32,903 nucleotides of DNA from Alphaproteobacteria bacterium (lineage in GTDB: Bacteria; Pseudomonadota; Alphaproteobacteria; Rickettsiales; UBA3002): NCBI GenBank assembly GCA_022841525.1, contig JALHRI010000022.1, forward strand, positions 1 to 32,903. The letters run 5' to 3'. Below the pieces are notes generated by a model. It ran no database searches. It was given only the letters and a program-made list of their open reading frames with translations, and was not told where the DNA came from. Each line of letters opens with the position of its first letter. Within the stretch, counting starts at the first letter, position 1. This document shows positions 2,748 to 32,903 of the stretch, piece by piece. Both the position numbers and the translations under genes were made by a program.

Positions 2748-2832
2748 GATAAATAGTTGCGTAATTACTCCGATTATTACTTTGTTGTTAGTTCCTCGGC
2801 CCCGAGTCTGTTGTTGGATTCGGGGCTTTTTT
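2748..2832 (+). ncRNA. Candidate short RNA cassette B (GATAAATA to terminator)
   Basis: It opens with GATAAATAGTTGCGTA, identical to cassette A at 14 of 16 positions, and ends with a strong hairpin: GCCCCGAGTC 2799-2808 pairs with GATTCGGGGC 2817-2826, one G-U pair, then six T. No ATG occurs between motif and hairpin. The terminator shows that the helicase gene downstream does not begin before it. It could instead be a leader attenuator for the helicase gene. Confidence 0.45.
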
Positions 2833-2912
2833 GTGGCCGCGATGCTAAATACAAACATGCGTTTTTCAACGCTGCGTTACGCATAGTGCGTTACGAAATC
2901 GGAGCAACAACA

Positions 2913-4334
2913 ATGAACATCGACTTCTACGCCAATGGCTGCGGCACTGGCAAAACAACAAAGATCAAAGAGATTATCAGCAACACACCCCTTGCCTACT
3001 TCCTTGTAATTGTGCCAAGCAAGGAGCTGGCAAAGGAATATGCAGATGTGGGTGAAGTGGTCATCAGTGGTGACGTGGAGAGTAATACACCCAACGTGCA
3101 GAAGCGAATTACGCAGGCTACTGTAATGGATGACACCCGCGTATTGATAATCACACAAGCTGCCTTCATTAACTCCACTGACAAGCACCATTTGTGCAAA
3201 GACCGTATCGTTATACAAGACGAAGAGTTAAAGGTTTTCTCAAGCGAACGTTGGAAGATGAATAACCACAAAGAATGGCTTTCAATGTTCGACGTCAAGG
3301 CCTGTGCAGCTGATTGGTTCAGCACCAATATCAATAAGTCAATTGCGGAAGCGTTCTTGAAAGAAGTAGACGACCTTGATAATCCACGACAAGTCAAAGA
3401 CCTATTAGCCAGTCCTTACGATGTTTGGAGTAACAATAATAAGTTTGATGAATTCAGCCAGCTCTTCAAAGTAATGAAGCCTGAGGTGTACAAATCAGCC
3501 AATCGCGTAATCATTGCCTGTGCCAATTTCAAGCAAACATTTCAATATCAAATCTGGAAACACCTGTACTCGGTGAACTTCAATTGCAAGGCTGAGTTTG
3601 AAGGTTACTCCGGCACCAACACCATAATCCATCACGCTGACCAACCCATCAACAGCATCACCTACAACAAGGGTGATGGCAATGTGCGTGACGCCGTTAT
3701 TAAGTACGTTACAGACAATGCAGCAGGTGACAAGATCATTGGTGTGGACAATAAACGGTTTGAATTGCCTGCCACGTGGGTCCGTGTTGACCACAATTGC
3801 CACGGTGTTAATAGCCACAGGGACACCAAGCACATTGCCATCCTGAGTGCAATCAACTATGCCAACCTTGAGTCACTGTTTCTACAGAATATCTGCGGTT
3901 TGTCAAAGGATGCAATCTCCTTTGCACTCCTGGGTGAAACAGCCCATCAGGTTGTGATGCGTGGTGTGCTGCGAATGGATAACACCGCAGAGTGCCACAT
4001 TTATGTGATGGAGCAGCGCCTTGCCTTCTACTTGAAGATGGCCCTATTCCCTGATGCTGAACTGCTCACCATTGCAGGCACTGCACGAACTGAGAGCGCC
4101 CCGCGTAAGGCTGCACTGACACAGGTTGACCGTAACAAGGCAGCACATATCAGGAAGCAATGGCCTGCCTATGCGAACAAGTCTGCGGAGGACATCAAAG
4201 ACGAATTGATTTGGGATATCTGCGGGTCACGTGGTCGTATCCGTCCAGAGGTGTTAAAGGACTACAGTGCTGAGTACATTAGTGCCATGTTGAATCAGAA
4301 GGAGCCATTGATTGATCCCTTCCAGAACAGGTGA
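2913..4334 (+). CDS. SF2-like helicase / P-loop ATPase, probable replication gene
   Basis: This 473-residue protein has a Walker A motif very near its N-terminus (GCGTGKTT, residues 9-16), a motif-Ia-like VPSKELAKEY (34-43), a Walker B/DEAD-like VIQDEE (100-105) and, near residue 345, HQVVMRGVLR, which fits the arginine-bearing motif VI of superfamily 2 helicases. A conserved-looking CHGVNSHRDTKHIAIL block lies around 296-311. The protein probably unwinds or remodels nucleic acid during phage replication. The ATG at 2913 has GGAG at eight bases; the frame stays open 52 codons upstream but that part contains a terminator and no ribosome site. It resembles helicase-like proteins of plasmids and phages from memory. 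No primase or initiator is recognised next to it. Confidence 0.75.
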   Translation: MNIDFYANGCGTGKTTKIKEIISNTPLAYFLVIVPSKELAKEYADVGEVVISGDVESNTPNVQKRITQATVMDDTRVLIITQAAFINSTDKHHLCKDRIVIQDEELKVFSSERWKMNNHKEWLSMFDVKACAADWFSTNINKSIAEAFLKEVDDLDNPRQVKDLLASPYDVWSNNNKFDEFSQLFKVMKPEVYKSANRVIIACANFKQTFQYQIWKHLYSVNFNCKAEFEGYSGTNTIIHHADQPINSITYNKGDGNVRDAVIKYVTDNAAGDKIIGVDNKRFELPATWVRVDHNCHGVNSHRDTKHIAILSAINYANLESLFLQNICGLSKDAISFALLGETAHQVVMRGVLRMDNTAECHIYVMEQRLAFYLKMALFPDAELLTIAGTARTESAPRKAALTQVDRNKAAHIRKQWPAYANKSAEDIKDELIWDICGSRGRIRPEVLKDYSAEYISAMLNQKEPLIDPFQNR

Positions 4335-6134: not shown

Positions 6135-6353
6135 GTGATAGACCTTACATCCATCATCACATCGGAAATGAACAGCTACACATCCAAGCTGACATTACTT
6201 GAATCACAGTATCAGATGCTTCATTCAAATCAAGCACTGGTCAACAACAACCTCACGCAGATAGAACGACTACGCGCAGAACTACCAGACGAAATACTGT
6301 GCTTCTACGATCAGCTGCGTGTGATCAACAAGCTTAAGGGAGACCAGGTATGA
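6135..6353 (+). CDS. Small coiled-coil phage protein, function unknown
   Basis: This 72-residue protein begins MIDLTSIITSEMNSYTSKL and is almost wholly helical with hydrophobic heptads (LTLLESQYQMLHSNQ, LTQIERLRAEL), suggesting a coiled-coil dimer. The GTG at 6135 has GGGAG close upstream. Its stop overlaps the ATG of the next gene as ATGA, so the pair form an operon. No family is recognised. Confidence 0.75.
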   Translation: MIDLTSIITSEMNSYTSKLTLLESQYQMLHSNQALVNNNLTQIERLRAELPDEILCFYDQLRVINKLKGDQV

Positions 6354-6613
6354 CCGAAGAAGAAACATTCAATCACCTCCGCCGTGCCCCATTCTCACAG
6401 TTCGTTAACGACTTTCAAGCGGACTGGCCACAGTTCCTAGTGAGCGACATTGCCACCAATGGCTACATGATGATGCTTGTGCAGCACAACCTACTTCAAG
6501 AGAAGCAGTACGGTTATCCACGTTGGTGGGCCGAGCGCAATGGGTGGGACTTTAACGAGTTCTGTGCACGGTGCGTTGAAACGTGGGGCACCGAAACACC
6601 TCAAGATAAATAA
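6350..6613 (+). CDS. Small phage protein, function unknown
   Basis: This 87-residue protein begins MTEEETFNHLRRAPFSQFV and is rich in Trp, Phe and Tyr (WPQFLV, YPRWWAERNGWDF). It is cytoplasmic, with no transmembrane segment or known motif. Translation is coupled to the upstream gene by an ATGA overlap. The last codons and stop (Asp-Lys-stop) are themselves written by the GATAAATA motif at 6605-6612 that opens cassette C. Confidence 0.75.
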   Translation: MTEEETFNHLRRAPFSQFVNDFQADWPQFLVSDIATNGYMMMLVQHNLLQEKQYGYPRWWAERNGWDFNEFCARCVETWGTETPQDK

Positions 6614-6684
6614 TTGCCTACACTTATTATTCCTTAATATTTCTGCCGTAGACTGCCCCATTGTTAACTCAGTGGGGCTTTTTT
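6605..6684 (+). ncRNA. Candidate short RNA cassette C (GATAAATA to terminator)
   Basis: It opens with GATAAATAATTGCCTA and closes with a hairpin, GCCCCA 6655-6660 with TGGGGC 6673-6678, followed by six T. The motif overlaps the stop codon of the preceding gene. No ATG frame lies within. It may simply be the 3' end and terminator of the upstream operon; the repeated opening sequence is what suggests a separate transcript. Confidence 0.4.
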
Positions 6685-6696
6685 ACGGGTGCAGAG

Positions 6697-6846
6697 GATA
6701 AATAAATTGCAGACCACATACGCTGTTTTCTAATTATTATCGTTGGCAAACTACCCGATTAGAAAGTCCTTAGCCGGAATTAACTATTTGACATAACTTA
6801 TTTTATAGATTAGAAAGCCCCGTTCTTAATCGTTCGGGGCTTTTTT
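6697..6846 (+). ncRNA. Candidate RNA cassette D with alternative pairing and terminator
   Basis: It opens with GATAAATAAATTGCAGA and has no ATG before its end. TTTCTAAT (6727-6734) can pair with ATTAGAAA at 6758-6765 or with the second copy at 6809-6816. The second copy overlaps the 5' arm of the terminator, AAAGCCCCG 6814-6822 with CGGGGCTTT 6835-6843, followed by more T. This could let the RNA switch between terminated and open states, or be a stable short RNA. Confidence 0.45.
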
Positions 6847-7000: not shown

Positions 7001-7312
7001 TTACTTTCGTAATTCAGCCCGCAAGGGTTTGCCTTTTGGAAATTCAGTGATGCTTTGCGAAGGGAAACCACCTGATACACTATCAGTCCAATTGAGTTCT
7101 GCCACTGTGTATCCACCATCCGGTCTAGCTTTGAAAACAACCTGATGCGGAATACCCGGCAGTTTAGCATTAGCACCAGCTTTATCTTCTACAGTTAGAA
7201 CGTGCAAGCCACGTCGCGGGCTGGCTTGCTTAATGGTGTATGTGAGCATGAATACAACCAAATCCTGTTGATCCGGAAAGTAGCTGCGAAAGTAACGCTC
7301 AATGCGGGTCAT
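7001..7312 (-). CDS. Paralogue 1 of a tandem unknown family (YFRSYF)
   Basis: This 103-residue protein begins MTRIERYFRSYFPDQQDLVV. Its N-terminal 25 residues align with the two genes upstream (pattern ExYFRSYFxDExxxxxFxxxY), and the rest keeps a similar beta-rich layout (LHVLTVEDKAGA, PHQVVFKARPDGGYTVAEL). It is the last of three tandem copies and its ATG overlaps the previous stop as ATGA. Sequence beyond the N-terminal block has diverged strongly, so the copies are old. Function is unknown; the position in an oppositely transcribed accessory island suggests a lysogenic-conversion or anti-competitor role, which is inference. Confidence 0.75.
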   Translation of the reverse strand: MTRIERYFRSYFPDQQDLVVFMLTYTIKQASPRRGLHVLTVEDKAGANAKLPGIPHQVVFKARPDGGYTVAELNWTDSVSGGFPSQSITEFPKGKPLRAELRK

Positions 7313-7608
7313 GGCGAAGCAATCAATCTAATTGGCACAGTAGGTAAATGATTCATATTCACGCGAACCTGTTTGCCTGCATTAGAAAACATCAGCGTGC
7401 ATTCATTAGCACCACGAAGACCACGCTTCCATTGGATTAGATAGGGCAAATCTTCTCCCGCATATGGCTGATCCTGATGATCCACTATTCGCAACGTGTA
7501 ATGCACGCGATGCTCTACGTGTGTTTCCAGTCGATAAGTCAGCAGGAAAGCAGTTAGATCAATCTCATCTGCAAAGTAACTGCGAAAATAGCTTTCAACT
7601 TCAGTCAT
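7309..7608 (-). CDS. Paralogue 2 of a tandem unknown family (YFRSYF)
   Basis: This 99-residue protein begins MTEVESYFRSYFADEIDLTA. The ATG at 7606-7608 has AAAGG seven bases upstream; a TTG two codons earlier is less likely. It overlaps the end of the upstream paralogue by eight bases. The shared YFRSYFADE block is followed by HYTLRIVDHQDQPYAGEDLPY, which matches the layout WQLQVTDSAGYPYRGNLYPH of paralogue 3 (beta strand, D-x-x-G/Q-x-P-Y turn, then a strand containing IxW). Function unknown; probably a small beta-sandwich-like fold. Confidence 0.75.
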   Translation of the reverse strand: MTEVESYFRSYFADEIDLTAFLLTYRLETHVEHRVHYTLRIVDHQDQPYAGEDLPYLIQWKRGLRGANECTLMFSNAGKQVRVNMNHLPTVPIRLIASP

Positions 7609-7942
7609 TTCCAACCTTTATGTAATATGGCCGTGTGGGCAGTTCACCCGTAATACTGATGGCAACTGATTCCTTACCTGCCCAAAAGAAAATATCGGCA
7701 AAGTCCTCATATTCATTTCCTTCTCGCCACAAGATAGCGTGCGGATAAAGATTACCCCTGTACGGATAGCCTGCTGAGTCTGTTACTTGTAGCTGCCAGT
7801 ATGTTTTTCCATCAACTGCCAAGCTCACATCTATCTTGTGGCTGCTCTGGAATGCAACCCACTCTGCTTCATCTGCAAAGTAACTACGAAAGTATTGCTC
7901 TACAGCGGTATCGAATAGGTTATAGGAAATTTTAGGTCGCAT
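7601..7942 (-). CDS. Paralogue 3 of a tandem unknown family (YFRSYF)
   Basis: This 113-residue protein is first in the operon and begins MRPKISYNLFDTAVEQYFRS. The YFRSYFADE block sits at residues 17-25. It shares the D-x-x-x-x-P-Y turn and a following ILWREG/IQWKRG strand with paralogue 2. The ribosome site is weak (AAGA), so an alternative start is possible. No signal peptide or transmembrane segment is seen in any of the three copies. Confidence 0.75.
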   Translation of the reverse strand: MRPKISYNLFDTAVEQYFRSYFADEAEWVAFQSSHKIDVSLAVDGKTYWQLQVTDSAGYPYRGNLYPHAILWREGNEYEDFADIFFWAGKESVAISITGELPTRPYYIKVGND

Positions 7943-7983
7943 GTAATTCTTAATGATTACAAAATAGTGGCTTGTTCAACAAG
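7943..7983. promoter_or_regulatory. Divergent control region with two palindromes
   Basis: The 49-bp gap between a leftward operon and a rightward gene carries GTAAT 7943-7947 with ATTAC 7956-7960, and a 6-1-6 palindrome CTTGTTCAACAAG (7971-7983) that touches the AAGGAGG ribosome site of the rightward gene. These may be operators acting on both directions. Confidence 0.4.
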
Positions 7984-7991
7984 GAGGCCAC

Positions 7992-8261
7992 ATGCCACTG
8001 TTTCCCCCAGGTCAGATCGTATCAACTGTAGCTGCTCGCGCAGCTTGCGAGCGTTTCAACACAGAGCCAATGGAGCTTGTTCGTCGTCATATCGGCGGGG
8101 ATTGGGGAGTCTTGAGCGAAAGCGACGTGCGCGCCAACCAAGACGCTGTCACGTACGGGGACCGAATCCTAAGCAAGTACCTAGTGGGCACTGTGTGGAT
8201 GTATGTAATAACCGAAGCAGACCGCAGTTCAACTTGCATTCTGCTCACGCACGAATACTAA
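7992..8261 (+). CDS. Mobile-element protein of the 'TILL' family, function unknown
   Basis: This 89-residue protein ends in WMYVITEADRSSTCILLTHEY, the signature of a small protein family frequent on plasmids, integrative elements and prophages of Proteobacteria (typical form IWIITEADRSSTTILLPEEY). Members carry the same GDWGxLxxxDxxAN segment, here at about residues 36-49. The family is often misnamed as a restriction subunit; its role is not established. The ATG has AAGGAGG at optimal spacing, stronger than most genes here. It is a single-gene unit, divergent from the paralogue operon and closed by its own terminator. Confidence 0.8.
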   Translation: MPLFPPGQIVSTVAARAACERFNTEPMELVRRHIGGDWGVLSESDVRANQDAVTYGDRILSKYLVGTVWMYVITEADRSSTCILLTHEY

Positions 8262-24760: not shown

Positions 24761-26383
24761 ATGTCATTTTTTAATCCAAACATTCGGTTCGATCCAAACA
24801 ATCCACAAGGTTTGGATTATGAGAATGAGCAACTTCGTCTTGCCCGCCAGCGTGAGCTAGCTAAGGCAATGGCAGTGAAGTCCAAAGGTGGACAAATGGT
24901 GGGCGACTGGTATGCACCAACAGGCAACAAGGAAGGCATTGCTAACTTGCTTTCTAACGCCCTTGCAGCTTACTCAACCTACAAGACAAACGGTGCGGAC
25001 AAAGAGCTTACGAAGGCTGGAAACGATCAGTACGACTACTACGAGAACGAGTATTCACGTGGCATCGATCGTGAAGCAGTCAAGAAAGAACAGGACGCAA
25101 TTCAAGCTTACAGCTACACCTATGCAAATCCTCAAGAAGTTGGGCCACAAGACCCGAATGCCGCTAGGTCCATGGCTGTTCCTCCACAGAGCAACATTCA
25201 AGGCTCGATGTTGCCTGCTGCCTCAGCTGCGACTCGTCCTGCTGCACAGCAAGGCCCTGCCCTGCCACCTACAGGCGCTGGTGCTGGCCGTGGCTTCGTG
25301 AACGAAGTGCCAGGCGTGCGCGAACGCTACATGAACACCCCTCCGGGTGCGCGTGCAGTCGGTGAAGCGATGAACAACAGCCAGCGTGCCGATCCTCGTA
25401 TTGCTCCACAACCTGCTGCACCTGCTGCAATGCCTCAAAACGCCCCTACAGCGTTGAATATCCCTCAAGCGCCAGCTATGCCGCAGGTCGCACCTGTTGC
25501 AGCTCCTACAGCAGCACCTGTTCAGAGCGATTTCATCATTGACGCAGAAGCAGAGGCAGCAGCAGGACAACAACGCCAGAGCGTGCTTCGTCGTGCAGTG
25601 GAAGGAAACCAGTCACGTAGAAGCAATGCAATTCGTCAACTTGAGCGTGGCAACAGTGACGCAAGAGCACTGGCAAGAACACTACGCGCTTCCGCTCTAC
25701 GTGATGGAAAGATTACTACTGGCAAGCCGGGTGAATACTTGCTGCGTGACGGTGAAGTAATCGGCCAGCTACCAGACAACGGTGTAGGCACAAAGCCAAA
25801 CATTCAAACTGTAAATGGAATGCCATATGAAGTAGTTCAAGGCCCAAATGGTCCACAGCTACGCCCAATGAGTTCCACAGATGGTTCAAGCATTACTGAT
25901 CCAAAGGTTGCAGCAGAAGCAAGAGAGAAAGCTGAAGCACAACAAAGACAAGCCATCACATTAGGTCGCGTTACTTCCGATATCGACAAGATACTAGGTA
26001 GTGATGACCCTGAAAATGCATCCGGTCTGTATGCCAGAATTACAAGCGGCATCACAAATAGCACTGGATTCGTCACAGATGCAAGTGAAGCAAGGGCAAG
26101 GATTGACGGTATCAGCAGCCAAGCTATTCAAGCGATGGTTGCAAACCTATCCGCTGCTGGCGTTTCACCTACACAGCTTGCTAACACTGAAACTGAAGCT
26201 AAGAGGCTTGCTGCTTCCGTGTTCAACGTGGACTACAACCGCATGAGTGCAGCTGAGATTAGAAACCAGATGAACATCTTCAGGAATCAACTCACAGACC
26301 TTGCACAGAAGAACCTTTCTGTCACACAGCCAGCAGGTGTAGCAAACATCAATGGAATCCAGTTTAGGAAGGCACCACAATGA
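24761..26383 (+). CDS. Probable internal virion (DNA-ejection) protein
   Basis: This 540-residue protein begins MSFFNPNIRFDPNNPQGLDY. It has a helical N-terminal part (LRLARQRELAKAMAVKSKGG), a Pro/Ala-rich disordered middle (residues 130-245) and a helical C-terminal part (residues 380-520). Size, low-complexity composition and place between other ejection-protein genes suggest an internal virion protein released into the cell at infection. The stop overlaps the next ATG as ATGA. Confidence 0.7.
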   Translation: MSFFNPNIRFDPNNPQGLDYENEQLRLARQRELAKAMAVKSKGGQMVGDWYAPTGNKEGIANLLSNALAAYSTYKTNGADKELTKAGNDQYDYYENEYSRGIDREAVKKEQDAIQAYSYTYANPQEVGPQDPNAARSMAVPPQSNIQGSMLPAASAATRPAAQQGPALPPTGAGAGRGFVNEVPGVRERYMNTPPGARAVGEAMNNSQRADPRIAPQPAAPAAMPQNAPTALNIPQAPAMPQVAPVAAPTAAPVQSDFIIDAEAEAAAGQQRQSVLRRAVEGNQSRRSNAIRQLERGNSDARALARTLRASALRDGKITTGKPGEYLLRDGEVIGQLPDNGVGTKPNIQTVNGMPYEVVQGPNGPQLRPMSSTDGSSITDPKVAAEAREKAEAQQRQAITLGRVTSDIDKILGSDDPENASGLYARITSGITNSTGFVTDASEARARIDGISSQAIQAMVANLSAAGVSPTQLANTETEAKRLAASVFNVDYNRMSAAEIRNQMNIFRNQLTDLAQKNLSVTQPAGVANINGIQFRKAPQ

Positions 26384-32147: not shown

Positions 32148-32546
32148 ATGACTACTTCACCCAAACCCAAGGAGCAATCTGTGGAAGCTACCGATCTGAA
32201 GAAACTTACCTATGTCCAACTCAAGAAGCTTGCTGAGGATGCAACTGCACAGCTTGAAAGCAAGCGGGACGAGGAACTGAAGGTGCTTGCAGACGGGTAT
32301 GCAAAAAAGCTGGAACAAGCGGGTTTCACTATCAACGAAGGGGTAGCTGCACTTGGCCCTTACAAACCAGCTAAAACAGCGCGAAAAGCGCGTGTAGCGC
32401 GTGCGGACAAGGGTGTAGCAGCAGAGCCAAAGTACAAGGGACCGAACGGCGAGCTTTGGTCAGGCCGTGGACAAGCGCCAAAATGGATGAAGCCCTTGAT
32501 CGCAGCAGGCAAGAAAAAAGCGGACTTCCTCATCACAGAAGCCTAA
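32148..32546 (+). CDS. H-NS-like xenogeneic silencer
   Basis: This 132-residue protein ends with the H-NS DNA-binding motif: YKGPNGELWSGRGQAPKWMK (residues 96-115), where SGRGQAP enters the minor groove of AT-rich DNA. The N-terminal 65 residues form helices for oligomerisation (LKKLTYVQLKKLAEDATAQL), and a Lys/Ala-rich linker connects both (KTARKARVARADKG). The type is that of Burkholderiales H-NS family proteins. Here it sits near attR in an AT-rich prophage, so it may silence phage genes in the lysogen, affect host genes, or replace host H-NS. It has a shared operator-like site upstream and an efficient terminator about 90 bp downstream. Confidence 0.9.
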   Translation: MTTSPKPKEQSVEATDLKKLTYVQLKKLAEDATAQLESKRDEELKVLADGYAKKLEQAGFTINEGVAALGPYKPAKTARKARVARADKGVAAEPKYKGPNGELWSGRGQAPKWMKPLIAAGKKKADFLITEA

Positions 32547-32737: not shown

Positions 32738-32903
32738 ATGGTTTCGATCAAATACGCAGATTTAGTTGAGTCAATTGCAGCGTCTCTGCAGTACATCAGC
32801 TACTACCACCCGGCCGACTACATCGCCCACCTCGCCCGCGCCTACGAGCGTGAGCAAAGCGCCGCCGCCAAGGACGCCATTGCGCAGATCCTGACCAACA
32901 GCA
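32738..32903 (+). CDS. Fumarate hydratase class I, rebuilt with phage-encoded N-terminus (partial)
   Basis: Fumarase converts fumarate and water to malate in the TCA cycle. The visible N-terminal 55 residues include QYISYYHPADYIAHLARAYE and AAKDAIAQILTNS, the standard start of the class I, oxygen-sensitive iron-sulfur fumarases. The frame runs off the window. The first 16 codons (MVSIKYADLVESIAAS) are phage DNA, AT-rich and different in sequence from the severed host start (MTTSIRQNDLIESVAAA) but equivalent in protein. ATG 32738 has AAGGG seven bases upstream, also from the phage. The prophage thereby conserves a working enzyme after inserting in its gene, but places it under new leader and promoter sequence. 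Confidence 0.9.
   Translation, partial: MVSIKYADLVESIAASLQYISYYHPADYIAHLARAYEREQSAAAKDAIAQILTNS
32786..32804. other. attR core (right prophage junction)
   Basis: The second copy of CTGCAGTACATCAGCTACT lies in frame at codons 17-22 of the rebuilt fumarase. AT-rich phage DNA lies on its left, GC-rich host coding DNA on its right. Confidence 0.9.

Follow-up and report, generated by a model that had tools for sequence, protein, structure and literature searches.

Gene organization and transcription unit

According to our analysis, the window, which is the entire contig of 32,903 bases, carries between positions 7001 and 7942 a compact leftward operon of three small genes, here called A, B, and C, whose products begin with a common N-terminal block (the head). 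The features of this locus and of the contig ends are as follows.

7601 to 7942, minus strand: gene A, first gene of the operon, 113 amino acids (aa); head VEQYFRSYFADE; predicted pI 4.8
7309 to 7608, minus strand: gene B, 99 aa; head VESYFRSYFADE; predicted pI 6.2; paralogue of A over its full length
7001 to 7312, minus strand: gene C, 103 aa; head IERYFRSYFPDQ; predicted pI 9.8; only the head detectably common with A and B
7565 to 7590, minus strand: 26-nucleotide (nt) head-coding DNA repeat, copy in gene B (reference)
7869 to 7894, minus strand: the same repeat, copy in gene A, 92% identical to the B copy
7269 to 7294, minus strand: the same repeat, copy in gene C, 81% identical to the B copy
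6806 to 6843, minus strand: hairpin terminator past gene C (AAGCCCCG..CGGGGCTTT), z = -4.1 against shuffled sequences
7971 to 7983, no strand assigned: 13-nt palindrome without mismatch, CTTGTTCAACAAG, in the 49 nt that separate A from the divergent gene, candidate operator
7992 to 8261, plus strand: divergent neighbor gene, 89 aa, with relatives in 168 plasmid records at no more than 51% identity
100 to 118 and 32786 to 32804, at both contig ends: att-like direct repeat of the 19-mer CTGCAGTACATCAGCTACT

The three overlapping leftward genes of the original prediction were recovered as minus-strand open reading frames (7601 to 7942, 7309 to 7614, and 7001 to 7312). The second of these, as listed by the open reading frame finder, begins at a TTG at position 7614; the ATG at 7608 is the more likely start of gene B, and from this codon B overlaps the end of A by 8 nt. 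The overlap between B and C is 4 nt (ATGA), the ATG of C lying on the stop codon of B, and overlaps of this kind, judged from the sequence, are the usual arrangement for translationally coupled genes. All three reading frames are intact, as are the starts and the terminator, and recognized membrane or enzyme motifs are absent from the three products. The DNA coding for the head is a threefold direct repeat of 26 nt.

The hairpin at 6843 to 6806 is stable and is followed by a T-rich tract, while a convergent rightward unit (6135 to 6613) has its own terminator near 6655 to 6686. Ahead of gene A, no sigma-70-like promoter was found with the sigma-70 consensus, which may not be that of the host, and the palindrome at 7971 to 7983 has no second exact copy. 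Some of the plasmid relatives of the divergent neighbor form part of DUF6094 proteins. The genes had been described as lying within an accessory island opposed to the structural genes; their placement was borne out, but the "island" rather resembles a transcription unit of its own, made up of three genes, within an essentially complete prophage. A, B, and C make up one apparent transcription unit, a separate accessory unit opposed to the late genes.

Prophage context and integration site

The window encodes a tyrosine integrase (383 to 1429), an HNH homing endonuclease, and terminase, portal, capsid, tail, and lysis proteins. The 19-mer repeats lie where a class I fumarase gene (Pfam Fumerase, over cut-off) codes for the N terminus of its product. 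At the left end, the fumarase start codon is at position 49 and the frame stops shortly past the repeat. On the right, another start (ATG 32738) with another N terminus reads in frame into the fumarase body. In the 51 nt upstream of both repeats, only 20 positions match in an ungapped comparison, although the encoded proteins are alike. The integrase and the repeats in the split fumarase gene point to carriage by a temperate phage, and we read the contig as an essentially complete prophage, about 32.7 kb long, which is inserted in the fumarase gene and replaces the 5' end of that gene.

Several other genes of the prophage attracted our attention. The product of 32148 to 32546, by the right prophage end, contains an H-NS C-terminal DNA-binding domain (Pfam PF00816, E = 2e-11) and is a possible phage-borne silencer. 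The 525-aa protein encoded at 2757 to 4334 belongs to PHROG 2467 (unknown function) and has a weak DEAD-helicase match, and it is likely a replication protein. Among the late genes, 24761 to 26383 encodes a 540-aa protein with no PHROG or Pfam match.

Relationship of the three proteins

The shared head block is firmly supported, with pairwise BLASTP E values of 3e-17 (A and B), 1e-11 (B and C), and 1e-8 (A and C) and full-protein Smith-Waterman scores 12 to 24 standard deviations over 1,000 shuffles, none of which scored as high. The N-terminal ExYFRSYFxD head common to A, B, and C, as measured by these alignments, is far beyond chance. Pairwise identity amounts to 52 to 65% in the head (to alignment column 33) and to 16 to 21% in the remainder, in agreement with the earlier view of the genes as old paralogues, with the qualification that no relationship to the others can be detected for the body of C. 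When the head is removed, A and B are still clearly related (z = 11.1, E = 1.5e-8) and are thus recognizable as full-length paralogues, whereas C against A or B gives z values of about 1, with 161 and 196 of 1,000 shuffles scoring as high; its remaining approximately 80 residues align with those of A and B no better than shuffled sequence does. Since C detectably shares only the head, it would be either a very old copy or the same head on a different body, and its body may not be homologous to those of A and B at all.

Codon sharing also differs between the two parts. Of 38 identical residues in the head, 23 have the same codon against 16 expected from codon usage, compared to 13 same-codon identical residues against 14.5 expected in the rest of the proteins, counts that come in both cases from pairs that are not independent. 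The excess in the head is no more than suggestive of a constraint at the DNA level and is weak evidence that the head was exchanged or recently converted.

Predicted fold

The model of A (pLDDT 82.7, pTM 0.77), built on an alignment of three sequences only, has two helices (residues 13 to 19 and 25 to 34) and five strands, and YFRSYF takes in the last part of the first helix and the loop that follows. Up to residue 74, two helices and four strands succeed one another in the model of C as they do in that of A. The similar beta-rich layout proposed for all three proteins holds for A and B, while for C it depends on a model of middling confidence (pLDDT 67, the last 26 residues below 50), the alignment for which contained A and B. 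Unrelated folds had been named as an outcome that would count against the family; A and C are predicted to have compatible folds, but the C model is weak and is not independent of A and B.

Foldseek returned nothing significant for A (best E = 0.43 among viral structures and 0.54 in the PDB) or for C (best E = 0.06, viral), and VIA-align gave Z scores of at most 5.7 for A and C (actin-capping protein), under the level that is meaningful for this tool. Matches to RNA-phage coat proteins at Z of about 4 were dropped as reflecting a common sheet arrangement. For these models, the missing matches are no demonstration of a new fold.

Search for relatives and comparison with known systems

As originally proposed, the family is unrecognized and shows no known domain. 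There was no match for A, B, or C in Pfam, PHROGs (best E = 0.12), NCBIfam, or PADLOC and no relative among PDB sequences (best E = 0.35). Queries with single proteins and with alignments found no relative in IMG/VR, nor was any found in phage and plasmid records, in GTDB contigs, in approximately 1,000 whole genomes including those of the host's relatives, in 18 related virus records (some of them fragments), or at the loci of related terminases. The absence from the host's order says little, because the portal and the integrase of the prophage are absent there too. The host assembly has exactly three copies, all in the window, and the family profile used as a positive control recovers A, B, and C there. 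An exact degenerate DNA query of IMG/VR for E.YFRSYF (CGN arginine codons) gave four matches, which were rejected as lying in unrelated or very short frames. A search of the literature turned up no paper with the motif. The three genes are therefore an unrecognized orphan family; their arrangement is of an already known kind, and the family is new.

Prophage moron loci resemble the operon in forming a separate unit with its own terminator, in encoding small proteins, in lying on the strand opposed to the late genes, and in not being found in related phages; the protein family of the operon differs in being unrecognized. Homogeneous polyimmunity loci (PMC3482391) also consist of tandem, co-oriented, closely spaced, distant paralogues with no intervening toxin gene; A, B, and C differ in lying in a prophage and in having no known immunity family and no identified toxin partner. 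In the Selenomonadales element L138, an array of small paralogues (704 to 2257) is found just upstream of terS/terL. It differs in having four copies that are 50 to 70% identical, in their N-terminal hydrophobic segment, in lying on the strand of terL, and in its unrelated sequence, but with four small tandem paralogues near a terminase it shows that the arrangement of A, B, and C is not unique. The Mx8-like phages (Myxococcus Mx8 and Mx9, Stenotrophomonas BUCT555, and Bradyrhizobium ppBjS10J-1) have related portals (33 to 34% identity over 81 to 87%) and, in annotated records, the same terL-portal-capsid order as this prophage; they differ in that no relative of A, B, or C was found in the phage collection.

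Interpretation of the operon

The reading that we favor, at a probability of roughly 35%, is that A, B, and C form an accessory ("moron") operon of the lysogeny type, carried by a temperate podovirus-like phage, and that the products of the operon bind and block different partners and so protect the prophage or its lysogen. A single transcript would start in or near the gap at 7943 to 7991 and end at the hairpin near 6843 to 6806, and coupled translation would yield three small soluble cytoplasmic proteins. The two-helix head may serve all three proteins for folding or docking, divergence among them would lie in the faces of the beta-sheet, and each protein would bind and block a partner of its own, either a host defense factor or a component of a superinfecting phage; the cassette could thus act in counter-defense or superinfection interference. 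We infer partner binding from the small size of the proteins, the lack of recognized membrane or enzyme motifs, the spread of their predicted pI values, the orientation of their genes against the late genes, and a location like that of morons. The operon also adjoins a gene of a plasmid-wide accessory family (7992 to 8261), which favors the moron reading. There are precedents for prophage accessory loci with high expression (PMC7067206) and for small phage genes that overlap and act in exclusion (PMC9936078). None of the three proteins showed homology to a structural, replication, or lysis family in Pfam, PHROGs, PADLOC, or NCBIfam, and no link to defense or exclusion systems emerged by family, fold, or guilt by association. 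The same four libraries, which are not dedicated to anti-CRISPR proteins, gave no anti-CRISPR match. Cas1 was not found in the host assembly, and this speaks against a role directed at CRISPR in this host, although a target in another host is possible.

The main rival to the moron reading, doubtful in our estimate, is that A, B, and C are subunits of one hetero-oligomer, in which the two-helix head would be the interface, the charges would be complementary, and coupling would ensure equal amounts. The overlapping, coupled genes, the conservation of the head while the bodies diverged, and the presence of acidic, neutral, and basic members are all consistent with such a complex, but no relation between the body of C and those of A and B was detected. 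This same dissimilarity, together with the failure to find relatives outside one prophage, would suit duplicated genes drifting without a current selected function. Because each of the three frames is still open although the proteins have diverged widely, every protein keeps the head, and neither the starts nor the terminator are damaged, we consider drift unlikely. An array like the polyimmunity loci, each paralogue neutralizing another of the toxins or effectors that the lysogen encounters, would account for the tandem, co-oriented, closely spaced, and distant paralogues with no toxin gene between them (PMC3482391) and would agree with the alpha+beta fold predicted for A. That class was defined in bacteria carrying polymorphic toxins, however, and Pfam, NCBIfam, and PADLOC contain no immunity family that matches, so we hold this explanation, too, to have a small chance of being right.

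It is improbable that the three genes encode minor virion or morphogenesis proteins, such as decoration proteins or chaperones, that are out of place. The proteins are beta-rich and A has a weak similarity to a cyanophage structural protein, but at E = 3 this similarity is at chance level and was discarded; the genes lie on the strand opposite to the late genes with a separate terminator, and no relative was found in the loci of related phages. A routine structural component, homology to which had been put forward as evidence against the original prediction, was not found by PHROGs or Pfam.

Selection for diversity among the three proteins is plausible, and the roles first suggested for it, in host takeover, immunity to other phages, or target variation, are hypothetical. 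A bolder reading, to which we give little credence, is a modular interceptor array in which a conserved two-helix head, encoded by the 26-nt repeat, carries diverging or exchanged bodies, A and B being of one body type and C of another, with recombination at the head repeats giving rise to new target specificities.

Significance

The operon is real and unrecognized and is probably a prophage accessory cassette of small protein-binding proteins; at present it is one further orphan accessory cassette. It offers an unrecognized protein family, represented in a single phage by three natural variants, in a compact operon small enough for synthesis and direct testing on phage and defense panels. If the combination of a constant head with a variable body proves true, the cassette would illustrate the way in which phages generate diversity among small inhibitor proteins.
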